Assembly: GCA_030647435.1 (NCBI GenBank)
Contig: JAUSJX010000004.1
Location: 1 to 51,229 of the forward strand
DNA length: 51,229 nt
DNA from: Candidatus Rokuibacteriota bacterium
GTDB taxonomy: Bacteria > Methylomirabilota > Methylomirabilia > Rokubacteriales > CSP1-6
Direction of reading: 5' to 3'
Shown here: one piece after another, positions 1 through 20,695 of the stretch
How positions within the stretch are numbered: the first letter of the stretch is position 1
Layout: each line of letters begins with the position of its first letter
Translations under genes and position numbers: made by a program
The notes under the pieces: generated by a model
Databases searched by the model: none
What the model saw: the letters and a program-made list of their open reading frames with translations, nothing else
Told to the model about the DNA's origin: nothing

Positions 1-319
1 CCCCGGAGGCCGAGCCTCACGGTTGAGAGGCGAAGGCAGCATGGTCCGTCGCATCTGGCTGACGCGGCGGGACACTCCGGCGGGGTGAGAGCGACGGCAC
101 GGTGACCAGGACACGTCGAGCGACTGGAGAAGCCCTCCTCGTCCCACCGCGAAAGCGGCGGAGCCATGTCCAAGCTATAACCAGTGTTCCTGGGAAGTGG
201 GCGGACGGCGAGAGGGTGACGGAGGGGTCCGCAGTAGCGAGGAAGCGGGGTAATGCCCGTGGAGCAAAGGGGCCCTACTGGTGTGCAGTGTCTCCGCCCA
301 CACGGGAGGCAGGGGCGGT

Positions 320-1606
320 ATGACAACAGCGCCCATCAGCCTGCAAGACCTGCAGCGGAGGCTCTACGTCAAGGCGAAGGCCGAGAAGGACTGGCGGTTC
401 TGGGGCCTGTACGTTCATGTGGCCAAGCTGGAGACACTCCACGCGGCGTATGCGCGGGCCAAGCAGGATGACGGCGCGCCGGGTATCGACGGCGTGACGT
501 TCGAGGCCATCGAGGCAGCCGGGGTGGAAGGGTTTCTGGCGCAGCTGCGGGACGAGCTGGTCTCACGCACCTATCGGCCACTACGGAACCGGCGCGTCGC
601 AATTCCGAAAGAGGGCGGCAAGGTCCGCGTCCTGGGGATTCCGGCGATTCGGGACCGCGTGGTGCAAGGGGCGCTCACACTCATCGTGGAGCCGATCTTC
701 GAAGCCGACTTTCACGAGGGGTCGTACGGATATCGACCGAAGCGGACAGCCCAGCAGGCGGTGGACCGAGTGGCCGAGGCCATCGTGCGGCACAAGACGC
801 GGGTGATTGACGTTGATCTCGCGGCGTACTTCGACAGCGTGCGGCACGACCTGCTGCTCGCCAAGGTGGCCCGCCGGGTGAACGACCGAGACATCTTGCA
901 CTTGGTGAAGCTGATGCTGAAAGCCGCTGGGACGCGCGGGGTTCCTCAGGGCGGCGTGCTCTCCCCCCTCCTCAGCAACATCTATCTCACGGAGGTCGAT
1001 GCGATGCTGGAGCGGGCCAAGGCGGTCACGGCCAACGGCACGCACACGTACGTGGAGTACGCGCGCTATGCTGATGACCTGGTGATCCTCGTGCACAATG
1101 ATCGTCGGCAGGACTGGCTGATAGAGGCGGTAAACCGGCGGCTGCGGGAGGAGTTGGCGACACTCGATGTGCAGCTGAACGAGGAGAAGAGCCGGATCGT
1201 GGACCTGACGCGGGGGGAGAGCTTCGGGTTCTTGGGCTTTGACTTCCGGCGTGTCCGCTCGTTGCGGGGGCGCTGGCGGCCGCAGTATACGCCGAAGCAG
1301 AAGAAGCGCACGGCGTTGCTGCAAGCGCTCAAGGCGGTGTTCCGGGGCTTCCGGTCCCAGCGGGTGGAGGTGTTGATCGTCGAGATCAACCCGAAGCTGC
1401 GGGGCTGGGTCCACTACTTCCGGATCGGGCACGCGAGCCGGTGCTTTGCCTTTGTGAGGCAATGGGTCGAGAAGAAGGTCCGGCGCCACTTGATGCGGGC
1501 GAGGAATCGTCGGGGCTTCGGCTGGAAGAGGTGGAGTACGGCGGGGCTCTATGACTCGCTCGGGTTGTTTGCAGACTACCGAGTGCGGTACCTGAGCCGG
1601 GTCTGA
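320..1606 (+). CDS. ltrA: Group II intron reverse transcriptase/maturase
   Basis: This is a 428-residue intron-encoded protein that helps the intron splice and copies it into new DNA sites. The reverse transcriptase domain spans about residues 50-310. It contains PQGGVLSPLLSN at 209-220 and the catalytic YADD at 250-253. A maturase (X/GIIM) domain follows at about 325-420, with the typical LRGWVHYFRIG stretch. There is no C-terminal HNH endonuclease domain, so mobility would rely on nicks or replication forks, as in other En-minus introns. The ATG at 320 was chosen because GGGAGG lies at 304-309; an in-frame GTG at 281 would add 13 residues. The gene appears intact. Confidence 0.9.
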   Translation: MTTAPISLQDLQRRLYVKAKAEKDWRFWGLYVHVAKLETLHAAYARAKQDDGAPGIDGVTFEAIEAAGVEGFLAQLRDELVSRTYRPLRNRRVAIPKEGGKVRVLGIPAIRDRVVQGALTLIVEPIFEADFHEGSYGYRPKRTAQQAVDRVAEAIVRHKTRVIDVDLAAYFDSVRHDLLLAKVARRVNDRDILHLVKLMLKAAGTRGVPQGGVLSPLLSNIYLTEVDAMLERAKAVTANGTHTYVEYARYADDLVILVHNDRRQDWLIEAVNRRLREELATLDVQLNEEKSRIVDLTRGESFGFLGFDFRRVRSLRGRWRPQYTPKQKKRTALLQALKAVFRGFRSQRVEVLIVEINPKLRGWVHYFRIGHASRCFAFVRQWVEKKVRRHLMRARNRRGFGWKRWSTAGLYDSLGLFADYRVRYLSRV

Positions 1607-1657
1607 AAGTGCTCCCAGTCGATAGGTCCCATAACCCATGACGCGAAGCACCCAGGA

Positions 1658-1690
1658 AAGCCCGGTGCCGGAAATCGGCACGCCGGGTTT
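1658..1690 (+). ncRNA. Group II intron domain V hairpin
   Basis: This 33-nt hairpin carries the catalytic AGC at 1659-1661. It forms a lower stem 1658-1666/182-1690 (right arm 1682-1690), with the usual G-U pair opposite the triad. There is an AC bulge at 1680-1681, then a GC upper stem 1667-1670/1676-1679 capped by a GAAA-containing loop at 1671-1675. This matches the conserved domain V layout and places the intron's catalytic core just after the reverse transcriptase stop. The upper stem is one base shorter on the 5' side than in the classical 34-nt form. Confidence 0.75.
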
Positions 1691-1802
1691 GCGGTGGCGG
1701 GGGCTGGAAACGGCTTACGGCAACCCTACACGGGCACGAAGCTGGAAACGGCGGATACAGCCAAGGGGAGCCTACGGAGCTTTGCGCCAGTCCTCGACCC
1801 TA

Positions 1803-1877
1803 CTGAAGACCGCCAAGGCGCTCGGGTTGACGATTCCGCAGTCGTTGCTGGGGCGGGCGGACGAGGTGATTCAGTGA
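1803..1877 (+). pseudogene. 3' remnant of an ABC transporter substrate-binding protein gene
   Basis: The reading frame ending at the TGA at 1875-1877 encodes KTAKALGLTIPQSLL followed by GRADEVIQ. From family knowledge this is the characteristic carboxyl end of ABC_sub_bind (PF04392-type) periplasmic binding proteins. Upstream of about 1803 the same frame reads into intron RNA and loses all similarity. The simplest reading is that the group II intron inserted about 25 codons before the stop of this gene, and that the 5' exon lies outside the window. If the intron still splices, the gene could be functional. Confidence 0.6.
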
Positions 1878-1943
1878 TGGATCGACGGGCTTGCCAGTTG
1901 CGATGCTACGGGCATACCACCACACCCAGAGGAGGGAGTTTCC

Positions 1944-2459
1944 ATGGCCATCCAAACCGCTGACGTCATCATGCCAGGAAATGAGAACGCATTCGAGACC
2001 GGCCGGCGTGGGCAGATATCGTCGATCGCCGAACTCGACGAGTCCTACCGTTGGCTGCTCGAAAAGAACGTTACTGCAACCTTGGCCACGGTCAAGCGAA
2101 ACGGACTGCCCCAACTGACACCGATCTGGGTGGCCCATGATGGCGTCAACATCCTCGTGAACACCAAGAAGGGCCGTCTCAAAGACCGGAACATGCGGGA
2201 GCGGTCAGACGTGGCTATCCTGTGCGTCAATCCGGCGAACCCGTACCACTGGATGGCGATCAACGGCAAGGTCGTGGAGATGATCGAGGAGACCGACCCC
2301 GCGAAGGGCCGCGAGGCCACGGACAATGTGAACGAGCTGGCCCAGCGCTACATCAACACAACACCCTACCCGCTGCGAGATCCCAAGGGCGAAGTGCGCG
2401 TGCTCTTCAAGGTGCGGCCCACATACGTCATGACGTTTGGCCCGCCCCCGACCAGCTGA
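1944..2459 (+). CDS. PPOX-class F420-dependent oxidoreductase-like protein
   Basis: This 171-residue protein has the split-barrel fold of the pyridoxamine-5'-phosphate-oxidase-like superfamily. The segment from about residue 38 (LEKNVTATLATVKRNGLP, then QLTPIWVAHDG) matches the flavin/F420-binding barrel opening. IIaa-type strands follow with VAILCVNPANPYHWMAI, and the C-terminal helix precedes RVLFKVRPTYVMTFG. In related proteins from F420-using bacteria this arrangement binds deazaflavin F420 and reduces small substrates. Cofactor choice cannot be read from sequence alone. The start at 1944 follows a strong GGAGGG site near 1932-1937. The gene stands alone downstream of the intron-disrupted locus. 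Confidence 0.75.
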   Translation: MAIQTADVIMPGNENAFETGRRGQISSIAELDESYRWLLEKNVTATLATVKRNGLPQLTPIWVAHDGVNILVNTKKGRLKDRNMRERSDVAILCVNPANPYHWMAINGKVVEMIEETDPAKGREATDNVNELAQRYINTTPYPLRDPKGEVRVLFKVRPTYVMTFGPPPTS

Positions 2460-2649
2460 GCCGCGCGGCCACAGGGGAACTCAGCAAAAGTAGGGTCACA
2501 GCCGGGATCCAGGTGTGTCATGATGCTGGTGTCTGGCCCGGCTGTTGGTTCATCGCGGACCCCCCTCCTCACCAGACCTCGGCTCTGGTTCCGTCTTCCG
2601 CCTCCCAGAGAGTGCCATTCCCGGCGGGAGTTCTGTTTGGAGGTTTACC

Positions 2650-2931
2650 ATGGCGCATAAAATTTATGTCGGAGGCTTGTCCTTCTCCACGTCGGACGAC
2701 CGCCTGCGTGAGATGTTCGCGGTGGCCGGCGGGGTCGAATCCGCCGCAGTCGTGATGGATCGTGACACGGGTCGCTCGCGCGGATTCGGCTTCGTCGAGA
2801 TGGCGACGGCCGAGCAGGCCGCCGACGCGGTCAAGCAGTTCAATGGCCAGGCCGTGGACGGCCGGACGCTCAAGGTCGAGCTGTCGACTGGTGCGGGCGC
2901 AGGCCGGGGCAGCGGCAGCAGCCGCGGGTAG
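2650..2931 (+). CDS. RRM-domain RNA-binding protein
   Basis: This is a 93-residue single RNA-recognition-motif protein. RNP2 is IYVGGL at residues 5-10 and RNP1 is RGFGFVEM at 44-51; the aromatic residues in both are those that stack on RNA bases. A short Gly/Ser/Arg-rich tail follows at about 81-93. Small bacterial RRM proteins of this form occur in cyanobacteria, proteobacteria and several candidate phyla, often linked to cold or stress, but no role can be assigned here. The start is set by TTTGGAGG ending at 2643. The 190-nt leader after the previous gene shows no riboswitch or clear thermosensor that I can recognise. The next ORF begins 8 nt downstream. Confidence 0.9.
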   Translation: MAHKIYVGGLSFSTSDDRLREMFAVAGGVESAAVVMDRDTGRSRGFGFVEMATAEQAADAVKQFNGQAVDGRTLKVELSTGAGAGRGSGSSRG

Positions 2932-2938
2932 GCGGGAG

Positions 2939-3244
2939 ATGAGTGGACTCATGACGAGCCTCAATGAGCTTCGCGAACAGGGACAGATGACATGGAACGA
3001 GCACGAGCAGGGCTGGATCGGGACGCCGGGGGAGATCCTCGACGCCCTCGCCGCAGACGGCTTCAACGAATGCAAGCGTGAGATGACCTCGAGCCGGCGC
3101 GATTGCCGGCCGGTAGGCGGCGTGTGGCAAGGCGTCAATCCGCTGACCAATTCCGTGGCGTCGCTGATCTGGGTGGCTCGCCCGGCGGCGCAACCGGCCA
3201 CGCTGTTCATCGAGATTGACGGGGAAGCGCTTCCCAGCCTCTAA
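2939..3244 (+). CDS. Hypothetical 101-residue protein
   Basis: I do not recognise a family. The frame starts at an ATG 8 nt after the RRM stop, with GCGGGAG immediately upstream, and ends in a 4-nt convergent overlap with the methyltransferase stop. The protein is soluble-looking, with no signal peptide or membrane span. It has two Cys (in NECKREM and RRDCRP) and a C-terminal beta-like stretch ending LFIEIDGEALPSL. Codon use is like its neighbours and its close position behind the RRM gene suggests co-transcription. An internal ATG at 2951 is an alternative start. Confidence 0.55.
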   Translation: MSGLMTSLNELREQGQMTWNEHEQGWIGTPGEILDALAADGFNECKREMTSSRRDCRPVGGVWQGVNPLTNSVASLIWVARPAAQPATLFIEIDGEALPSL

Positions 3245-3885
3245 CAGAGTGAGGCGGAATCACCGGGGGCGCGCCGCGCCCAGACGGCGTAGAGGGGATC
3301 GCCCCGCCGCGGCGCGTGCTCGAAAGTCTCCACCGCGGCCCAGGCGCGGCCCGGTTCCGCCGAGTCCGCGAAGTAGGCGGTGACGATCTCGACGTGCTCC
3401 TGGTCGTCCGTGACGCGCCAGAGGGCGACGGCCTTGTCGGGGAAGCACCGATTGCTGAAGCTCACGACGAACGGCGCGCCGGGGCGCAGCACCCGGCGGA
3501 TCTCCCGGAAGACTTCGAGCGGCCGCGTGAGGTACTGGACGGCGACTGCGCACATGACCGCGTCGAAGGCCGCAACCGCGAACGGCAGGCCGGGCTCGCG
3601 GTTGAGGTCGTGGACGACGGCGGCGGTAAGCTGCGGGTTCTCGGCCATCTCCACCGCGTTCAAGCCGAGACCGATCACCGTGCCGCCGAAGCTCGCAGGA
3701 AGGTGGCTCCGCCACGACCCCATGAGGTCGAGCACGCGCCCGCCTGTGGGGACGAGCGCCGTGTAGAGTCGCGTGAGAGCTGCGATGGCGCCGTCGTCGA
3801 TGTGGACGACCCGACGCGGGAACGAGTAGAAAGCGGAGTCGTCGCCCTCGTCGAACCGGCGGAAGTCCCGCGCTGAGGTGTCCAC
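3241..3885 (-). CDS. SAM-dependent methyltransferase-like protein
   Basis: This 214-residue protein resembles the class I (Rossmann) methyltransferase fold. Motif I is the stretch RVLDLMGSWRSHLP near residues 50-63. It departs from the usual DxGxGxG and is typical of a divergent methyltransferase-11-like group. FDAVMCAVAVQYLTRP near 108-123 corresponds to the acidic post-motif region, and VLRPGAPFVVSFSNR near 132-146 to the motif after strand 5. The substrate is unknown. Transcription runs away from the small membrane protein gene 15 nt upstream on the same strand and converges with the 101-residue ORF. Confidence 0.75.
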   Translation of the reverse strand: MDTSARDFRRFDEGDDSAFYSFPRRVVHIDDGAIAALTRLYTALVPTGGRVLDLMGSWRSHLPASFGGTVIGLGLNAVEMAENPQLTAAVVHDLNREPGLPFAVAAFDAVMCAVAVQYLTRPLEVFREIRRVLRPGAPFVVSFSNRCFPDKAVALWRVTDDQEHVEIVTAYFADSAEPGRAWAAVETFEHAPRRGDPLYAVWARRAPGDSASLC

Positions 3886-3900
3886 GGCGCTGATTGTAGG

Positions 3901-4107
3901 CTATTGGTCTCTATCGTCCTCTTCGTCGCGGTCCGGACCCTGGGGTCCTCTCCCGTGTCCGACGACGGCCAAGGCAAATGCCAGGGTCAGAACAGCGGTC
4001 GTGATCAGGAAGATGACCATGCCTATCTGGCATCCCGGGTCGCTCCAGGCCTTGCTCATCAGCCAACCAAAGACGATGCCAGCGCCGGCGAACCCTACGT
4101 CCCTCAT
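3901..4107 (-). CDS. Small membrane protein coupled to the sheath gene
   Basis: This is a 68-residue protein with two hydrophobic segments, at about residues 5-17 (GFAGAGIVFGWLM) and 28-50 (MVIFLITTAVLTLAFALAVVG). A strongly acidic tail ends GPDRDEEDDRDQ. Its ATG at 4107-4105 overlaps the sheath gene TGA in an ATGA arrangement, which fixes the start and implies translational coupling. An earlier in-frame ATG at 4173 would give 90 residues but would overlap the sheath gene by 70 nt. I recognise no family. The position suggests it could anchor or accompany the sheath protein at the inner membrane, but that is inference only. Confidence 0.6.
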   Translation of the reverse strand: MRDVGFAGAGIVFGWLMSKAWSDPGCQIGMVIFLITTAVLTLAFALAVVGHGRGPQGPDRDEEDDRDQ

Positions 4108-5297
4108 CGTGCGCCGCGCCGAGCTGAGCGCCGCCGCCGCTTGTGGTGTGACGGCGGTCGATCGGCGGTCCATTGCCCGATGCGGAAAATGACGAACTCG
4201 GACGGTCGCACCACCGCCACGCCGACGACGCAGATGAGCCGCCCCTGGTCGATGTCGGCCTGCGTCATGGTCGAGCGGTCGCACTTCACGAAGAAGGCCT
4301 CTTCCGGCCTGCTGCCGGGCAGCCTGCCGGAGCGCCACTCACTCGTCAGGAAGTCCTCTACCGCGCGCCTGATCTTGGCCCAGAGCGGCTCGGCGTTCGG
4401 CTCGAAGACCGCCCACTGCGTGCCCTTGTCGATCGAGGCCTCGAGATATATGAAGAGGCGGCGGACGTTGACGTACTTCCATTCGGAGTCCGCGCTCAAT
4501 GTCCGCCCGCCCCAGACCCGGAAGTCGCGCGGCGCGAAGGCACGGATGCAGTTGATGGACTCCGAGTTGAGCACCGTCAGCGAAGCCTCGGTGACCTTGT
4601 GGTCGAGCCCGACGGCCAGCTTGACCACCTCGTTCGCCGGCGGCTTGCTCGCGCCTCGGGCGAGATCAACCCGCGCGTAGATGCCGGCGACGAAACCGCT
4701 CGGCGGCAGCGACAGTTCGCGCGCGTTCCTCGGGTCCTTCACGCGTACCCACGGGTAATACAGCGCGGCTTTCGAGGACGTGAGTCCCGCCCGCATCGCG
4801 CGGACGTCTTCGATCGACTGCCCGGGCCCTGAGTCCAGCACGGCGAATCGGTACCGCATCCGCTCCGCGTGCTCGATCAAGACCTTGGCGATCGCTGTTC
4901 CAGTTCCGCCGTCTTCATGCCCGAAGGTCGACCCGGGCGCCGCGACGATCGAGATCTCCTCGGTGGCCTCGAAGCACTTCAACGCCTTCTGGCAGTCGCC
5001 GGCCTTCCACCGAGGAACGCGCGCCACGTAGAGACGACGCCCGCCTTCCTTGAAGAACGCGCGCACGGCATGCCACGTGTAGTTCGACCTGGGGGCGCCG
5101 CCATCGAGCCGTAGCCTCCGGCCGCTGCCATACGTCCGCTCGAAGTCTGCGAGGCTGGTGACGAGGGTCGCCCTCTTGATCGGGCCCTTGTGACAGGGGC
5201 CGATGAACCCGGCGGTGCTGGTCGGTACGCCTTCGATCGGCTTCAGATGGATCGACATCTCTTCGACGTACACGCCCGGCGCGAGATACTCCGGCAT
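4104..5297 (-). CDS. Phage-type contractile tail sheath protein, solitary
   Basis: This 397-residue protein opens with PEYLAPGVYVEE, then KPIEGVPTSTAGFIG, the hallmark N-terminus of phage and extracellular-contractile-injection-system tail sheath proteins. The C-terminal half has the conserved NVRRLFIYLEASI, then GTQWAVFEPN and LWAKIRRAVEDFL segments of the sheath C-terminal domain. These segments interlock subunits around a tail tube. The length is in the family range. There is no tube, baseplate, spike, AAA ATPase or other tail gene nearby. Instead it sits between a lipoprotein gene upstream (60 nt) and a coupled membrane protein gene downstream. The extreme C-terminus is Arg/His-rich. The start follows GGAGG in cacggaggcaccg. 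Confidence 0.88.
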   Translation of the reverse strand: MPEYLAPGVYVEEMSIHLKPIEGVPTSTAGFIGPCHKGPIKRATLVTSLADFERTYGSGRRLRLDGGAPRSNYTWHAVRAFFKEGGRRLYVARVPRWKAGDCQKALKCFEATEEISIVAAPGSTFGHEDGGTGTAIAKVLIEHAERMRYRFAVLDSGPGQSIEDVRAMRAGLTSSKAALYYPWVRVKDPRNARELSLPPSGFVAGIYARVDLARGASKPPANEVVKLAVGLDHKVTEASLTVLNSESINCIRAFAPRDFRVWGGRTLSADSEWKYVNVRRLFIYLEASIDKGTQWAVFEPNAEPLWAKIRRAVEDFLTSEWRSGRLPGSRPEEAFFVKCDRSTMTQADIDQGRLICVVGVAVVRPSEFVIFRIGQWTADRPPSHHKRRRRSARRGAR

Positions 5298-5357
5298 CGG
5301 TGCCTCCGTGGGCCTGTGGTGGTGCTCTGCGATTGTCGACGGCGCGGCCGGACTGGC

Positions 5358-5651
5358 TTACGGCGTGACCGTGTAGCCCTTCGTCTTCATGCACTCCGCG
5401 AAGGGATCCAGGTCGACCATCCGGCTTTGGGTGGCCAGCGGGGCGGGGCCGCCGGAACCGCCGACCCAGACCGCGGTGCCTGTCCACGGGCTGGGGGAAG
5501 CGCCGAGGCAGGCCGCGCCGTCATCGGTCAGCTGCTGGGAAGTCACGCCCTGCTTGTGGTAGCGGGCGGGCCATTGGCTGGGGTCGTTGGCGGCGGCGCA
5601 GCCGCTCAGGAATCCAATGAGCGTGCCTATCGCGAGAGTTCGGCGGATCAT
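5358..5651 (-). CDS. Small lipoprotein
   Basis: This 97-residue protein has a lipoprotein signal peptide: MIRR, a hydrophobic segment and the lipobox LSGC, with Cys18 predicted to be lipidated. The mature part contains two further Cys (in DDGAACLG and FAECMKTKGY) that could pair. The C-terminal FAECMKTKGY is a motif common to short Gram-negative periplasmic lipoproteins. No function is known. It lies 60 nt upstream of the sheath gene on the same strand, so the two may share a transcript, and it diverges from the SRAP gene across about 60 nt. Confidence 0.75.
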   Translation of the reverse strand: MIRRTLAIGTLIGFLSGCAAANDPSQWPARYHKQGVTSQQLTDDGAACLGASPSPWTGTAVWVGGSGGPAPLATQSRMVDLDPFAECMKTKGYTVTP

Positions 5652-5710
5652 GCTGGCCGCGAGTCTAGCAGAGACGGCCGCCGAGCTGCCGGGCGAGTAG
5701 AATACGTGCC

Positions 5711-6208
5711 ATGTGCGGCCGCTACACTCAGACCGCGGCGTTCGACGAGCTGGCCCTCCGCTTCGGCATTACCGTCGAGGACGCGGGCCTCGAAGACCTG
5801 CCGCCGCGCTACAACGTCGCCCCGTCACAATCGGTGCCGATCGTGGTCGCCCACAATGGCGGCCGCCCGCTCGTCATGGCCAAGTGGGGCTTCCACCCCG
5901 TCTGGATGAAGACCAGCAAGCTGGCCCCCATCAACGCGAAGGCGGAGACCGTCGCCAACGCGCCGGAGACGTGCACCATCATCACGACCACGCCCAACGA
6001 CCTCGTGGCCGCGATTCACAACCGGATGCCGGTGATCCTCAAGCGGGACGACGAGGTCCGCTGGACCGACGCGCACGTGACCGACCCGGCGGCGGTGCTG
6101 CCGTGCCTCCGCCCGCTGCCGGCGGAGCTCATGGAGGGGTACCCGGTGTCGACGCTGGTGTCATCGCCCGGAAACGAAGGGCCGCGCCTCGTGCAACCGG
6201 TCAGCTGA
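5711..6208 (+). CDS. SRAP/YedK-HMCES-like protein with internal deletion
   Basis: Full-length SRAP proteins (about 220 residues) crosslink to abasic sites in single-stranded DNA through Cys2. Here MCGRYT keeps Cys2, INAKAE keeps the Asn75 equivalent (YedK Arg77 is Lys), and IHNRMPVIL keeps the active-site His. The protein is only 165 residues. Between AKAETV (ends at 81) and TCTIITT (starts near 87) about 50 residues are missing, including the GFYEW segment with the catalytic Glu (YedK Glu105). The reading frame is intact across the junction, near DNA 5953-5968. It may be a reversal-defective crosslinker or a decaying gene. The HicA gene starts 4 nt after its stop. Confidence 0.88.
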   Translation: MCGRYTQTAAFDELALRFGITVEDAGLEDLPPRYNVAPSQSVPIVVAHNGGRPLVMAKWGFHPVWMKTSKLAPINAKAETVANAPETCTIITTTPNDLVAAIHNRMPVILKRDDEVRWTDAHVTDPAAVLPCLRPLPAELMEGYPVSTLVSSPGNEGPRLVQPVS

Positions 6209-6212
6209 CGCA

Positions 6213-6437
6213 ATGACGAGAATGGACTTGGAGAAGTGGCTCATCCGCAACAACTTCGCGCAGGTTCCTGCGGGCAAGACAAGCCATAAGCAGTTCGTGC
6301 TCGGCACGTGCAAGGTGACGGTGCCGGGTCACGGCTCCAAGGACCTCAGCAAGAAGCATCTCGGCATGATCCTTCGCTCACTGGAGTCCGTCGGCTTCGA
6401 CCGCGCGAAGGTCCGGCGTGAGTGGGGCGATGCCTGA
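6213..6437 (+). CDS. hicA: HicA-like toxin (orphan)
   Basis: This 74-residue protein is HicA-like: a dsRBD-like mRNA-interferase fold. It shows the family order of an N-terminal helix (LEKWLIRNNFAQV), then GKTSHKQF with the catalytic-type His at residue 25, then KVTVPGHGSKDLSKKHLG and a C-terminal helix. HicA toxins cleave mRNA and are normally neutralised by a HicB encoded next to them. No HicB is present: the next gene downstream is a convergent lipoprotein with a stop 1 nt away, and upstream is the SRAP gene. Usual hicA genes are 60-80 codons, so the length is normal. Confidence 0.7.
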   Translation: MTRMDLEKWLIRNNFAQVPAGKTSHKQFVLGTCKVTVPGHGSKDLSKKHLGMILRSLESVGFDRAKVRREWGDA

Positions 6438-6438
6438 A

Positions 6439-6729
6439 TCACAACGGAGGCTGGAGCGCCCACCACCCTCGACTTACCATGCAGCGTTGAAAGAGGCGAT
6501 TCGCGCTGGTTTGTTCCGGCGTCACCGGCCCTTCGAAGTACGTGCGCGGGTCGGTGTTTCCCTCGACTGATCCCACACGCGACTCCGGGCCGCACGCGGA
6601 CAGGGCGCTCTTCATCTCTGTGTTCGATGCGTTCGCCTTGTGCCAGAGGCGATAGTCGGTACCGTAGAGCGAGCACCCAGCAAAGAGCCCGGCGAGCAGC
6701 ATGTAGGCAGCGGGCCTGAGCGCGAGCAT
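6439..6729 (-). CDS. Small lipoprotein
   Basis: This 96-residue protein starts at the ATG behind a strong AAAGGAGG; a longer frame to 6813 is unlikely. The signal peptide MLALRPAAYMLLAGLFAGC carries a lipobox with Cys19. The mature domain has Cys in LSACGPES and FQRCMVSRGWW, similar in layout to the lipoprotein at 5358-5651: two Cys, the second near the C-terminus followed by a Met and a short basic/aromatic end. The role is unknown. It lies downstream of the BNR-repeat gene (24 nt) and is probably in the same transcript. Confidence 0.7.
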   Translation of the reverse strand: MLALRPAAYMLLAGLFAGCSLYGTDYRLWHKANASNTEMKSALSACGPESRVGSVEGNTDPRTYFEGPVTPEQTSANRLFQRCMVSRGWWALQPPL

Positions 6730-6752
6730 GGAAGCCTCCTTTCCCTTGACGG

Positions 6753-7817
6753 TCAACCACAGGCGACCGTGTAGATGTCCTGGACGCCGTCGGGCAGGTG
6801 CTGCTCGGACCACGTCCGGCCGCCGTCCTGGGTGCCGAAGACCTGGCCGCCGCGGCTGACGCAGTAGACCTGGTTGGGATCGGCCCTGTGCAGCGCCACC
6901 GCCATCATGGTGCTCCCGGCCTTGACGCCGTGGTCGAAGCGCGTCCAGGTCTCGCCGACATCCCGGCTGCGATAGAGCGATCCATCCACGCTTCGCGCCG
7001 CGGGGCTCAGGCAGGCGTACAGGTCGCGCGGATCGTGCGGCGACACCAGGATGTCACGGCTGTACGTGAGCGGCGAGAAGCGGCCGATGTCCATGTTCTG
7101 CCAGCTCGCGCCGCGGTCGGCGCTCTGGAACAGGCCCATGCGGACCGCCAGGAACACGGTGCCGGGCCGCGCGGCGCTCACGCACACCGCGTGGCCGTCG
7201 AGCATGCCTTCGAGATGGCTGTCGCTGTCGATCGTACTCTTGAGGTGCGGCAGCTCGGCGAGCTTGAGCAGGTCCGAGCTGCAGTCATCCCACGTCTCGC
7301 CGCCGTCGAGGCTCCGCATGACGCCGCCGACTTCGAGCGCCGCGTACAGCTCCTCGGGCCGGGTGGGATCCGCCACGAGGCGCATCACGCGGCAGACGAA
7401 GGACTTCATCTTGACGCGCTCGGGCTGCGCGGCCTTCGGAAGCCGATGCCAGGTGTCCCCACCGTCGTCGCTCCGGAAGACGCCGACGGGAGAGGTGCCG
7501 GCGTACAGGATGCGGGGATTGGCCGGATGCACGAGGATCGACCAGACTTCGGTGCCGTCATCGGGGAAGCCGAGCCGCTCCCAGTGCTCCCCGCGGTCCG
7601 TGCTCCGGTAGGGGCCGGTCCGGGTGCCGAGATAGACGACGTCCGGGTTCGTCGGGTGGATGGTGATCGCCTGGACGTGAGTCACCTCCGGCAGGCCCTT
7701 GGTCAGCTGCGTCCAGCGGTCGTCGCCGTCCGCGCGCCGGAAGATCCCCCCGAGCGTCTTTGAGCTGGACCGCGCCGCGCCGACGTAGACGTGCGAGGCC
7801 GCCGATGGATTGGTCAT
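6753..7817 (-). CDS. BNR/Asp-box repeat beta-propeller protein
   Basis: This 354-residue protein is built from repeated Asp-boxes (SxDxGxxW). Visible copies are STDRGEHW, SDDGGDTW, SLDGGETW, SADRGASW, SRDVGETW and TQDGGRTW, alternating with strands such as VVYLGT and ILYAGT. This pattern predicts a six- or seven-bladed beta-propeller of the sialidase/VPS10 superfamily. There is no signal peptide and no sialidase FRIP motif, so it is more likely a binding or structural propeller than a glycosidase. Its start follows a weak GGGGG site. It is encoded 10 nt after the VOC-family gene and likely shares its transcript. Confidence 0.82.
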   Translation of the reverse strand: MTNPSAASHVYVGAARSSSKTLGGIFRRADGDDRWTQLTKGLPEVTHVQAITIHPTNPDVVYLGTRTGPYRSTDRGEHWERLGFPDDGTEVWSILVHPANPRILYAGTSPVGVFRSDDGGDTWHRLPKAAQPERVKMKSFVCRVMRLVADPTRPEELYAALEVGGVMRSLDGGETWDDCSSDLLKLAELPHLKSTIDSDSHLEGMLDGHAVCVSAARPGTVFLAVRMGLFQSADRGASWQNMDIGRFSPLTYSRDILVSPHDPRDLYACLSPAARSVDGSLYRSRDVGETWTRFDHGVKAGSTMMAVALHRADPNQVYCVSRGGQVFGTQDGGRTWSEQHLPDGVQDIYTVACG

Positions 7818-7827
7818 GTGTGTCCCC

Positions 7828-8259
7828 CTATGGCCGGAAGTCCGAGGAGCCGACCCAGCCCGTCTCGGAGACGTCGAGCATGACTCCGTCCGGGCCGCTG
7901 TACTTCACCTCGACGTTGCCGTGGCGCTGACTGGACTGTCCCACGCCGAGCGCCTCGTTGACGTCGTCACGGCGCTCGGAGCCGGCGGCTGCCAGCCGCT
8001 CGGCGATCGCCTCGAGACTCTCCACCTGGAAGCCGATATGGTGGATCCCGTAGAAGTCCTTGCCTCGCTCGACTCCCGCCACTGCGTCGTTCTTGAACTT
8101 GAGGATGGCCAGGTTGAGGTCGCCGTCGGTGAGAAAGTAGCCGCTCACGGCGGGATGGTCGACCTGCCCGATCTGCTTCATGCCGAACACATCGGTATAA
8201 AAGCGCGCGGTCTTCTCCGGGTCCTGGGTCGACAGCGCGATGTGCTTGATCTTCGCCAT
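7828..8259 (-). CDS. VOC-family (glyoxalase/dioxygenase fold) protein
   Basis: This 143-residue vicinal-oxygen-chelate protein consists of two beta-alpha-beta-beta-beta modules. Module one begins KIKHIALSTQDPEKTARFY, with a potential metal His early in the strand. Module two begins GIHHIGFQVESLEAI and ends VEVKYSGPDGVMLDVSETG, where Glu/Asp could complete the site. VOC members include glyoxalases, ring-cleaving dioxygenases and epimerases; the substrate cannot be told. The start at 8259 was preferred because GGAGG lies 5-10 nt upstream; the frame extends four codons further to 8271. It is divergent from the TRAP operon. Confidence 0.82.
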   Translation of the reverse strand: MAKIKHIALSTQDPEKTARFYTDVFGMKQIGQVDHPAVSGYFLTDGDLNLAILKFKNDAVAGVERGKDFYGIHHIGFQVESLEAIAERLAAAGSERRDDVNEALGVGQSSQRHGNVEVKYSGPDGVMLDVSETGWVGSSDFRP

Positions 8260-8380
8260 GACGTCCTCCACTGGTCGCGAGTTCGATAGGGTGGCCTATT
8301 TTAGCCCGTCCGCGGCCGCCGCGCATACGATAGACTACCCGCCGCCGGCCCATCGTCCCATCCGCGCAGAGGAGGTGCAC

Positions 8381-9409
8381 ATGCCCAACATCGGGAGATT
8401 CGTACTCGCCGCTCTGGCCGCCGGCATCATCGCCGCCGCCCAGCCCGCGCTCGCCCAGACCACGCTCACGATGTCCTCGTGGGTGTCGCCCCAGCACCAT
8501 CTGACCAGCGTCGTCCTGCAGGGCTGGGCGACCGAGGTCGAGAAGGCCACCAACGGCCGCGTCAAGTTCCAGATGCTGCCCAAGCATCCATCGGCGCCGC
8601 CGGGCACCTTCGACGCGGTCAGGGACGGCCTCGTGGACCTGTCGTACGTCACCGCGAGCTACACGCCGGCGCGGCACATTCTGCCACTCATGGCGGAGCT
8701 GCCGGGCGCCGGCGACACCGCGCTCGTCAACTCGGTTGCCTACTCGCGCATCTACTGGAAGTACTTCGACAAGATCGGCGAGTACAAGGGCGTGAAGCTC
8801 CTGGGCGTGTTCACGCACGGCCCCGGCCAGATGTTCACCAAGCGGCCGGTGGCCGGCATCAACGACGTGCAGGGCCTGAAGATCCGCACCGGCGGCGGCA
8901 TCGCCGAGGCGGTGGCGAAGGCGCTCGGCACCTCCGCCTTCGTGAAGCCGGCGCCCGAGTCCTACGAGCTCCTCAAGGGCGGGGTCGCCGACGGCGTGTT
9001 CTTCCCCCTGGAGTCGATCATTTCGTTCAAGCTCGACACCGTGCTCGAGCAGGCGACGCTGTTCCCGGGCGGGATGTACAGCTCGTCGTTCGGCTTCTTC
9101 ATGAACGAGGACAAGTGGAACAAGCTGTCGAAGGAGGACCAGGCCGCGATCGAGAAGCTCTCCGGCGAGCACATCGCGCGCCTCGCCGGGGCGTCGTGGG
9201 ACGAGGCCGACAAGAAGGGCCTGGAGGCGCTGAAGAAGTCCGGCGTCAAGATCGTCAACGCCAACCCGGCGTTCGTCGCCGAAGTGCAGAAGCGCTCCGC
9301 CCCCATCGTCGACGACTGGATCCAGAAGGCCAGCGCCAAGGGCGTGGACGCCGCCAAGATCCTCGCCGAGTTCCGCGCGGAGCTGAAGAAGGTCGCCGCC
9401 GGCCAGTGA
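8381..9409 (+). CDS. dctP: TRAP transporter substrate-binding protein DctP
   Basis: This 342-residue periplasmic binding protein captures a carboxylate or related solute and delivers it to the DctQM permease. A signal peptide covers residues 1-25, ending PALA before QTTLT. The mature protein has TRAP-P landmarks. SWVSPQHHLTSVVLQGWATE opens the mature chain, then come LPKHPSAPPGTFDAV and QGLKIRTGGG, where the Arg in KIRT is the carboxylate-binding residue in the family. Start: GAGGAGG lies 4-10 nt upstream of the ATG at 8381. The three TRAP genes are tightly arranged with 13-19-nt gaps, so they form one operon. Confidence 0.92.
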   Translation: MPNIGRFVLAALAAGIIAAAQPALAQTTLTMSSWVSPQHHLTSVVLQGWATEVEKATNGRVKFQMLPKHPSAPPGTFDAVRDGLVDLSYVTASYTPARHILPLMAELPGAGDTALVNSVAYSRIYWKYFDKIGEYKGVKLLGVFTHGPGQMFTKRPVAGINDVQGLKIRTGGGIAEAVAKALGTSAFVKPAPESYELLKGGVADGVFFPLESIISFKLDTVLEQATLFPGGMYSSSFGFFMNEDKWNKLSKEDQAAIEKLSGEHIARLAGASWDEADKKGLEALKKSGVKIVNANPAFVAEVQKRSAPIVDDWIQKASAKGVDAAKILAEFRAELKKVAAGQ

Positions 9410-9428
9410 CCGGCCCCGCGGCTAACCA

Positions 9429-9902
9429 GTGACCGCTCCCGCGGCCACATGGGAGCGGCGCGTCGAGGCGCTTCTCGGCGTCGTCGCTTCCGTCATTCTC
9501 CTCGCCATGATGCTCCTCACCTTCGTGGACGTGGTGGCGCGGTACATTTTCAGTCGCCCGGTCCGGGGCGCCTTCGAGATCACCGAGCTGATGCTGCTGG
9601 TGCTGATCTTCGCCGGCCTGCCCCTCGTGTCGTTCACCGACGAGCACGCCCTCATGGATTTCATTGACCGCCTGCTCCCCCCGCGCGCGCAGCGTGCGCT
9701 CGAGGGCCTCGTGCAGGGGGTATCCGGGGCGATCATGTTCCTCCTCGCCTGGCAGGTCTGGCTCAAGGCCGACCGGATCTGGGCCTACCGCGACGCCACC
9801 GACGTCCTGCGCATCGTCTACGGCCCCTTCGTCTACTTCATGGCAGTTTCGATCGGGCTGGCCGGCCTGATTCACCTCTACAAAGTGGTCGAGCGTCGAT
9901 GA
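9429..9902 (+). CDS. dctQ: TRAP transporter small permease DctQ
   Basis: This 157-residue membrane protein has four predicted helices at about residues 13-37, 47-66, 84-105 and 128-150. These match the DctQ subunit that pairs with DctM in Na+-driven TRAP uptake. The second helix includes AFEITELMLLVLIFAGLPL, a conserved DctQ region. It lies between dctP (19 nt) and dctM (13 nt). Confidence 0.9.
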   Translation: MTAPAATWERRVEALLGVVASVILLAMMLLTFVDVVARYIFSRPVRGAFEITELMLLVLIFAGLPLVSFTDEHALMDFIDRLLPPRAQRALEGLVQGVSGAIMFLLAWQVWLKADRIWAYRDATDVLRIVYGPFVYFMAVSIGLAGLIHLYKVVERR

Positions 9903-9915
9903 GTGAAGCCCGCCG

Positions 9916-11214
9916 GTGATCGAGGGGCTCTGCGGCCTCACCGCGATGATGGCGCTCGCCTTCCTGCGCATCCCCATCGCGTACTGCATGGGCATCGTCG
10001 GCATTATCGGCTACGCCTACATGCGCGACTGGAACTGGCTGGTGGCCTCCGCCATGGTGCAGACCAAGATCTACGAGACGGGGCGCAACTACACGCTCTC
10101 GGTGGTGCCGCTCTTCATCCTGATGGGCAACTTCGTCACGCGCGCTGGCATGTCGCAGGAGCTGTTCCGCGCCGCGTACACCTTCATCGGCCACCTGCGC
10201 GGGGGGCTGGCCATGGCGACCGTGTGGGCGTCCGCCGGCTTCGGCGGGATCTGCGGCTCCTCGATCGCCACGGCGGCGACCTTCGCGAAGGTGGCGTACC
10301 CGTCCATGAAGCGCTTCGGCTACTCGGACCGGCTCGCCGCAGGCGTCGTCGCCGGCGGCGGCACGCTCGGCATCATGATCCCGCCGTCGACCATCATGGT
10401 GATCTACGGCGTCTTCACCGAGACCAACATCGGCAAGCTGTTTGCCGCCGGGATCCTGCCCGGCATTCTCGGCGCCTTCCTGCTCTGCGGCGCAGTCCGG
10501 TACATGACCTGGCGCGATCCGGCTTCGGGCCCGCCGGGCGAACGCTCGACTTGGCGCGAGCGCCTGCTCGCTCTCAAGGACGTGTGGGCGGTGGCGGTGC
10601 TGTTCATCTTCGTGATGGGCGGCATCTACGTCGGCTTCTTCACCGCCACCGAGGGCGCGGCCATGGGCGCCTTCGGGGCCATGGTGTTCGCCCTGTGGCG
10701 GCGCGCGCTCACCTGGCGGACGCTCTACGCGTCGCTCCTCGAGAGCGCCCGCACCACGTCCATGCTGTTCATGATCCTGATCGGCGCGCTGATCTTCGCG
10801 GAGTTCGTCAATATCACGACGATGCCGGCGGACCTCAAGGGCTGGGTGACGCGCTTCAACCTGAGCCCGACGATGGTGGTGGCGGCGATCTGCGCGGTCT
10901 ACGTGGTGCTCGGCACGGCGATGGAGGAGCTGTCGATGATCCTGCTCACGATCCCGGTGTTCTTCCCGGTGATCGTCCAGCTGGGGTTCGACCCCGTCTG
11001 GTTCGGCATCATCATCGTGTGCGTGGTCGAGATCGGCCTGATCAGCCCGCCGGTCGGGATGAACATGTTCGTCCTCAAGACGCTGCTGCCCGAGGTGAGC
11101 ACCGGGACCGTCTTCAGCGGCGTGCTGCCGTTCATGTGGGCCGACGTGCTGCGTCTCGCCATCCTGGTCGCGTTTCCCTGGATCTCGCTCTGGCTGCCGA
11201 GCATGATGCGCTGA
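9916..11214 (+). CDS. dctM: TRAP transporter large permease DctM
   Basis: This 432-residue protein belongs to the ion-transporter superfamily and has about 12 membrane segments. It forms the Na+/solute transport path of the TRAP system. Conserved DctM features are SVVPLFILMGNFVTRAG near residue 57, the AGFGGICGSSIATAATFAKV segment and the GGTLGIMIPPSTIMVIYG signature near 150. GLISPPVGMNMFVLK near 375 is the second pseudo-repeat counterpart. Translation probably starts at the GTG at 9916, as no closer ATG fits. The operon ends here and converges with the MFS gene 19 nt away. Confidence 0.93.
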   Translation: MIEGLCGLTAMMALAFLRIPIAYCMGIVGIIGYAYMRDWNWLVASAMVQTKIYETGRNYTLSVVPLFILMGNFVTRAGMSQELFRAAYTFIGHLRGGLAMATVWASAGFGGICGSSIATAATFAKVAYPSMKRFGYSDRLAAGVVAGGGTLGIMIPPSTIMVIYGVFTETNIGKLFAAGILPGILGAFLLCGAVRYMTWRDPASGPPGERSTWRERLLALKDVWAVAVLFIFVMGGIYVGFFTATEGAAMGAFGAMVFALWRRALTWRTLYASLLESARTTSMLFMILIGALIFAEFVNITTMPADLKGWVTRFNLSPTMVVAAICAVYVVLGTAMEELSMILLTIPVFFPVIVQLGFDPVWFGIIIVCVVEIGLISPPVGMNMFVLKTLLPEVSTGTVFSGVLPFMWADVLRLAILVAFPWISLWLPSMMR

Positions 11215-11232
11215 AGGGCGACAATCTCCCCC

Positions 11233-12483
11233 TCAGCGAGTGAGGAGCGCCGGGCGCCGGAACAACGTGACGGCGAGCGGGCCGAGCGCCAGCGCGCCGC
11301 CCACCACGTTGAGGATGGCGAAGCCCCACACGCCGAGGATCATCCCGCCGGCGGCGGATCCGAGGGCGCCCATCAAGCCCATGAAGAGGTCGGCGAAGCC
11401 CTGGATCGACGGTCGCTCCGCCGGCGTCAGTGCGTCGGTCAGCAGCGCGCTCCCGGCCACGAACGCCAGGTTCCAGCCCACGCCGTTCAGGAAGAGCGCG
11501 AGGATGACCAGGACGCGGTCGGTGCCCGGGGCGAGTCCCGCCAGCAGGACGGCGACAATCAGAATCACGGCGCCGGCCCCGATCATCAGCAGCCGTCCGA
11601 AGCGGTCGCACAGCCAGCCCGATAGCGGCGACGTGACATACATGCCGGCCAAGTGAAAGGACACGGCCAGCCCGATCGTCTGCACGTGATGTCCCTGGTC
11701 GTGGAGGTAGAGGGGTGACGTGGAGGTCGTGCTGATCATCACGAACTGGCTGATCGAGAGCGTCGCCAGCGCGATCTGCACTCGGACATCTCCGAGGATC
11801 GCGCCGAGCCGGCGGGCTTGGCCGGCGGGCCGGCCCGCGTCGACGATTGCCTGGCTGTGGCGCGCGATCGCCAGCGGATCGGGCCGCAGGAACACCTCGA
11901 TCAGGAGCGACGCCAGCGCGTAGCTGCCCACGGCGATGAGGAACGCGCTCGCCACGGACGAGACCCCGAGAAGAGCGCCGAGGCGCAGGGCCGGGGCCAT
12001 CAGGTTCGGCCCGATGATCGAGCCGATCGTCGAGCCCCACACGATCAGCCCCATCGCGCGGCCGCGCTGCGCGGGCGACGTGACGTCGGCGGCGGCGTAG
12101 CGGGCGAGGAGGTTGGAGGTGCTCGCGATCCCGAAGAGCGCCATCCCGCCGAGCAGCAGCCAGAAGCTGCCGACCGCCACGCCCATCATGGCGAGGAGAG
12201 AACCGATGACGGCGAGGCCATAGCCCAGCGCCAGGCCCGGCCGGCGCCCCGAACGGTTCATCAGGCGGGCGAGCGGCCAGCTCGCGAGTGCGGTACCCAG
12301 AGCCCCGACGGCGATCGGCAGGCCCGACCAGGTATTCGTCCCGGTGATGCTGGCCGCCACGATGCTGCCGACCGCCAGCCCGATCGACTGCCCGGTGCTC
12401 CCGCAGACCTGCGCCACGAACAGCGTGGCCATCAGCTTGCCGCGGACGGATGCACCGCCCGACGTCGTTGTCAGTGGGTTCAT
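11233..12483 (-). CDS. MFS transporter
   Basis: This 416-residue major-facilitator protein has 12 predicted helices. The loop motif LMNRSGRRPG between TM2 and TM3 corresponds to MFS motif A, and its counterpart in the second half is LCDRFGRLLM. The substrate is unknown. It ends in the convergent junction with dctM. Its start is 9 nt after the CoA-transferase stop, so it is likely the second gene of a CoA-transferase/MFS operon and may export or import a related acid. The start at 12483 removes an upstream frame that is antisense to nothing but overlaps the CoA transferase. Confidence 0.85.
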   Translation of the reverse strand: MNPLTTTSGGASVRGKLMATLFVAQVCGSTGQSIGLAVGSIVAASITGTNTWSGLPIAVGALGTALASWPLARLMNRSGRRPGLALGYGLAVIGSLLAMMGVAVGSFWLLLGGMALFGIASTSNLLARYAAADVTSPAQRGRAMGLIVWGSTIGSIIGPNLMAPALRLGALLGVSSVASAFLIAVGSYALASLLIEVFLRPDPLAIARHSQAIVDAGRPAGQARRLGAILGDVRVQIALATLSISQFVMISTTSTSPLYLHDQGHHVQTIGLAVSFHLAGMYVTSPLSGWLCDRFGRLLMIGAGAVILIVAVLLAGLAPGTDRVLVILALFLNGVGWNLAFVAGSALLTDALTPAERPSIQGFADLFMGLMGALGSAAGGMILGVWGFAILNVVGGALALGPLAVTLFRRPALLTR

Positions 12484-20528: not shown

Positions 20529-20695
20529 GGCGCGAGGATCATACGGTATCCGCGGGCTCGACGCCAGCCGGACCCGGGGGCGCCGCGGCGCCGGCGCGCT
20601 CCGTTCACCACGCCCGGCGGCGCCGCCCGGCTATACTGGCATGATCGAGCGAGCGCAGGGCTCGCCGCGCAACAGGGGACCCCAGGAGAATCTCG

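Follow-up and report, generated by a model that had tools for sequence, protein, structure and literature searches.

Contractile sheaths in known systems

The sheaths of known eCIS and contractile injection systems (CIS), such as the solved structures 9ezm (Halogeometricum borinquense) and 8bky (Streptomyces coelicolor) or the Pvc2 and Afp2 proteins, are encoded in clusters that also contain genes for tube, baseplate, cap and ATPase. In R-type particles, N- and C-terminal strands mesh the sheath subunits, and a helix grips the tube (PMC6088184). When produced alone, without tube or baseplate, the T4 and phiKZ sheath proteins form irreversibly contracted polysheaths, and the C. difficile diffocin sheath CD1363 stays monomeric, with no self-assembly (PMC6088184).

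One-domain chromosomal sheaths are also known from both bacteria and archaea. The accessible part of PMC9230969 models such 'type 1' sheaths from Acidobacteria Mor1 (410 aa), Bathyarchaeota (321 aa) and Lokiarchaeota (369 aa), and discusses prophage origin or mis-binning; gene neighbourhoods and orphan status are not treated in that part. A search of open-access papers found no description of orphan sheaths.

The locus described here lies in a 51,229-nucleotide stretch of a Candidatus Rokuibacteriota contig (JAUSJX010000004.1), hereafter the window. Its sheath resembles eCIS and CIS sheaths in whole-core sequence, in fold, and in the N-terminal, subtilisin-like and C-terminal segments, and it shares the size class and one-domain architecture of the 'type 1' sheaths modelled in the accessible part of PMC9230969. 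In contrast to the known eCIS and CIS sheaths, it is accompanied by none of the partner genes searched for. It also lacks the inserted outer domain found in most sampled relatives, although Pvc2 and Afp2 (354-355 aa) are likewise short.

A solo sheath gene of the eCIS type

The first-pass annotation had reported a sheath gene with no tail gene adjacent, and this is borne out: none of the neighbouring ORFs is a tail gene. The region (3901-5651) holds the following features, the 5358-5651 ORF lying upstream of the sheath on the same strand, as had been stated:

3901..4107, minus strand: gene for a 68-aa membrane protein, conserved in relatives without a sheath (genome comparison)
4104..5297, minus strand: solo tail-sheath gene of eCIS type encoding 397 aa, reduced to a minimal one-domain core (matches in Pfam, PHROG, PDB and Foldseek; ortholog in G002)
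5303..5307, minus strand: ribosome-binding site GGAGG, 5 nt upstream of the ATG of the sheath gene (direct sequence reading)
5358..5651, minus strand: 97-aa lipoprotein-like ORF with a MIRRTLAIGTLIGFLSGC lipobox, ending 60 bp upstream of the sheath (sequence and comparison)

The sheath ORF is a single intact frame. In a Pfam scan, its product belongs to both Phage_sheath_1 (E 3.5e-17; 63.2 bits for a curated cut-off of 31.4) and Phage_sheath_1C (E 8.5e-13; 48.7 bits for a cut-off of 26.9), with no match to the profile of TssC, the T6SS sheath. PHROG_23, a tail sheath family, is matched over the full length (E 1e-56). The nearest solved structures are the CIS sheaths 9ezm (E 5.6e-101) and 8bky (E 4e-94), which again come out on top in a Foldseek search with the AlphaFold model, a model of moderate quality (pLDDT 65.6) that is too weak for interface analysis. 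A subtilisin-like domain (residues ~101-267) is followed by a C-terminal domain (~269-373), without the inserted outer domain. Promoter, terminator and Rfam scans gave no match.

The protein is 56-61% identical to sheaths within three eCIS clusters (L002-L004), whereas the best phage matches reach 24-30%; judged by these relatives, it is of the eCIS type rather than a phage tail sheath. A phage or prophage origin was rejected, given the far weaker phage relatives and the lack of any viral contig encoding it. A mis-binned contig was rejected as well, as the flanks are syntenic with those of a genome of the same genus (G001), with a DNA identity of ~94% across a large part of the window.

Search for the missing machine

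The first-pass annotation had proposed searching the genome for other eCIS genes. This search, run on the 5.79-Mb assembly (98.5% complete), recovered a single sheath gene, and genome-wide neither a PF06841 inner tube, nor Baseplate_J, nor a gp25-like gene. The same searches were positive for tube, Baseplate_J and gp25 in two eCIS genomes of the same class (G034 and G041), used as positive controls. At the locus itself, no AAA ATPase and no cap/terminator (DUF4255-like) gene was recognised by eye among the neighbouring ORFs. Three components of a complete contractile injection system, the tube, the Baseplate J-like and the gp25-like proteins, are thus each missing. The sheath protein belongs to a known family and stands outside any contractile injection system; it is not counted in one because tube and baseplate were looked for and not found. 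A sheath match alone must not count as an injection system.

Conservation of the sheath

Within the genus, a second genome (G002) carries an ortholog of 386 aa, 82% identical and also solo. Between the two genes, dS is 0.30 and dN 0.093 (dN/dS 0.30), the ratio falling to 0.16 in residues 301-380. These values indicate that the gene is under purifying selection, that is, constraint rather than neutral decay. Of 71 columns conserved across 20 eCIS sheaths, the window sheath keeps 93%, as does that of G002; the eCIS sheaths themselves keep 83-100% in a leave-one-out comparison. The most constrained region contains a long C-terminal helix (303-322) in the AlphaFold model (pLDDT 65.6), and the terminal regions are also kept. 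A clade-conserved stretch at 236-258 is altered in both the window and the G002 sheaths, and these shared changes may mark a changed surface.

The distribution is patchy: the sheath occurs in two of the five genomes of the genus, and is absent from G001, the closest relative examined. No further solo sheath was found among 95 genomes of the class.

Locus history and the overlap with the 68-aa gene

The first-pass annotation had pointed out an ATGA overlap tying the sheath to the 68-residue ORF. The overlap is real, the sheath stop TGA (4104-4106) sharing bases with the start ATG of the downstream frame. Its origin can be reconstructed from three genomes. In G002, the sheath is flanked by a molybdopterin oxidoreductase on one side and a CBAH-family acylase on the other. 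In G001, the syntenic flanks run SRAP, acylase, 68-aa gene and methyltransferase, with neither sheath nor lipoprotein. Two features of the window come from these alignments:

4104..4110, no strand: deletion scar TCATCGT, a 7-bp microhomology carrying the ATGA stop/start overlap
4104..4143, minus strand: last 13 sheath codons, encoding the basic tail RRRRSARRGAR, a relic 3' end of a CBAH-family acylase gene

In G001, a copy of TCATCGT marks each end of a segment of ~1.13 kb that holds most of the acylase gene, and for this reason the comparison indicates that the window lineage lost the acylase by deletion between the 7-bp repeats. The ~40 bp at 4104..4143 match the acylase 3' end of G001 at 97.5% identity and are homologous to that of G002, whose sheath protein does not have the basic tail. 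Loss of the acylase would have run the sheath frame through this remnant into the start codon of the 68-aa gene. On this three-genome reconstruction, the overlap is a deletion scar and not an old translational coupling.

Upstream, the homology between the window and G002 stops at 5317, just past the ribosome-binding site, so that the sheath start and the GGAGG site are the last upstream sequence in common. Downstream, the acylase 3' end directly follows the sheath in both, at the place where the eCIS locus L003 has its tube gene; therefore, the 3' side would already have been tube-less before the two lineages split. Most simply, G001 lost its sheath; independent sheath insertions beside the same acylase in the window and G002 lineages would be a less simple alternative.

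Many other segments, from 171 bp to several kb, are missing from the window lineage when window positions 4104-25000 are aligned with G001 contig C199. Flanking-match overlaps of 5-7 bp occur at several junctions (4104-4110, 5959-5965, 6202-6208 and 20636-20640), a pattern suggestive of microhomology deletions. One of them has shortened the SRAP gene (5711-6208) to 165 aa, compared to 224 aa in G001, and because of this internal deletion (5959-5965) the activity of the product is doubtful. A group II intron reverse transcriptase/maturase (RVT_1 and GIIM) is encoded at 281-1606, 2.5 kb from the sheath; Rfam gave no intron match at gathering score in window positions 1-12000.

Solo sheaths in other lineages

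Solo sheaths of ~318-397 aa, without the inserted outer domain, were also found at six other loci:

L005: Bathyarchaeota MAG, solo sheath
L006: Desulfospira joergensenii (Desulfobacteraceae), solo sheath
L058 (G176): another genome of the family of Desulfospira joergensenii, solo sheath
L008: alphaproteobacterial MAG, 12-kb contig, solo sheath
L010: Nocardioides limicola, solo sheath
L094 (G272): second Nocardioides genome, 6.3-kb contig, solo sheath, 52% identical, with different neighbours

The eCIS sheaths of the same sample measure 422-785 aa, and short sheaths do exist in working machines (Pvc2, 355 aa). The tube was not found in any of the four solo-sheath genomes tested for it (G095-G098), nor Baseplate_J in any of the five tested for that gene. 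The other solo-sheath genomes searched for gp25 lacked it, except for one gene in Desulfospira, which was rejected as a sheath partner since it is part of a T6SS cluster.

Solo sheaths are scattered over a maximum-likelihood tree, with six state changes, at least four of which are forced by well-supported branches; the branches of the Nocardioides and alphaproteobacterial sequences are long, which makes their positions uncertain. On this tree, solo sheaths are polyphyletic among eCIS sheaths.

Two further Nocardioides genomes hold sheath fragments, a frame of 105 aa (L095, G362) and one of 177 aa that contains a stop (L096, G264), which are apparently decaying sheaths, unlike the intact solo genes. 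Orphan eCIS tubes (PF06841, ~150 aa) were also observed, on contig C179 of G002 (L025:733-1617) and contig C37 of G080 (L092:5008-5888), with no sheath in either cluster. Each is preceded by a 126-136-aa protein without a Pfam family; these partners are 40% identical and the tubes 36%. Orphan tube and partner look like a second, tube-based orphan module.

Alternative explanations

The first-pass annotation had offered two readings, an envelope-attached structure and a domesticated fragment of an injection system. The former, in which lipoprotein, sheath and 68-aa membrane protein would form one unit, was suggested by their common strand and close spacing (60 bp and the ATGA overlap). It is nevertheless the least probable explanation of all. 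The three-gene order is kept neither in G002, where neither small gene lies beside the sheath, nor in G001. No lipoprotein homolog was found in 12 relatives, which leaves the window's own genome as the only one of the 13 searched in which this gene was detected, whereas the 68-aa gene is present in three genomes (G001, G004 and G006) that all lack a detectable sheath, and the overlap itself is the deletion scar described above. The annotation had itself named lack of conservation of the two neighbours with the sheath as evidence against its idea, and such is the case. Both are bystanders, and the 68-aa protein is not a dedicated sheath partner. Compared by eye, small lipoprotein-like proteins encoded at window positions 6439-6738 and at L008:8894-9226 have ends (FQRCMVSRGW and ASFCMRTKGY) resembling the motif of the window lipoprotein (FAECMKTKGY), possibly a widespread lipoprotein family.

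The main rival, though a rather unlikely one, is a slow relic: the sheath would be the last piece of a lost eCIS, now functionless and on its way out. Its patchy distribution fits, including the lack of a sheath at the corresponding position in G001, as do the many deletions of the window lineage relative to G001 and the fact that sheaths do decay, as the Nocardioides fragments illustrate. A relic is, however, hard to reconcile with intact ORFs preceded by good ribosome-binding sites in both species, with a dN/dS of 0.30 at a dS of 0.30, with a retention of conserved sites inside the eCIS range, and with a loss of the tube on the 3' side that predates the split between the window and G002 lineages. 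Very unlikely is a dispersed machine, whose sheath, tube and other parts would cooperate from separate loci: the orphan tube of G002, beside its conserved 136-aa partner, speaks for it, but tube, Baseplate_J and gp25 are all missing from the window's genome, and Baseplate_J and gp25 from G002. Even less probable is interference, in which a free minimal sheath would co-assemble with, and spoil, the contractile machines of other cells or of phages, or act as a decoy. The conservation of the core assembly regions is compatible with such a role, and a defence-like gene might well show patchy, repeated origins; inspection by eye of the surroundings of the solo loci, however, revealed neither a defence nor a mobile island linked to them, and the literature search yielded no such case.

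A proposed function for the orphan sheath itself

On balance, these comparisons favour the reading of the gene as an orphan eCIS sheath that has been domesticated and is probably retained for a role independent of the machine. The second reading of the first-pass annotation, a domesticated fragment, thus gains support from the eCIS type of the protein, its isolation in the genome, the purifying selection, and its solo state in G002 beside the same acylase that is a relic in the window. The sleeve protein probably has its own job because an intact gene persists without a machine, and does so independently elsewhere, in bacteria and an archaeon. The gene would have outlived the loss of the remaining injection-system cluster, or been transferred alone, and would have been retained as useful without the machine.

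As for the form of the orphan protein, the core appears to keep both the N- and the C-terminal regions through which subunits interlock, together with the helix that grips the tube in pyocin, if helix 303-322 is indeed equivalent to the pyocin attachment helix, as we infer from the model. Without a tube and baseplate to template the extended state, the protein could assemble directly into a short, contracted-type cytoplasmic polysheath, which would be a passive tubule or scaffold, not an injector. Such a tube-less polymer is favoured because both termini and helix 303-322 are kept, and because T4 and phiKZ sheaths form polysheaths. The diffocin sheath, which does not self-assemble, and the altered stretch at 236-258 speak against the favoured reading, as does the patchy distribution. 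The polysheath is given roughly half the credence of the functional orphan reading itself. The T4 and phiKZ polysheaths show the state proposed here, a sheath protein with neither tube nor baseplate; they were seen with the partners absent, whereas the tube-less state of the window sheath is a natural genetic condition.

Sheaths have been thought of only as part of an injector. If sheath genes of several origins are under selection with neither tube nor baseplate, the sheath polymer must be useful in itself, and it may be, as a tentative proposal, that sheaths have separately and more than once been released from injectors in bacteria and archaea, stripped to their core, and kept as autonomous polymers of the cytoplasm that took on a new role.
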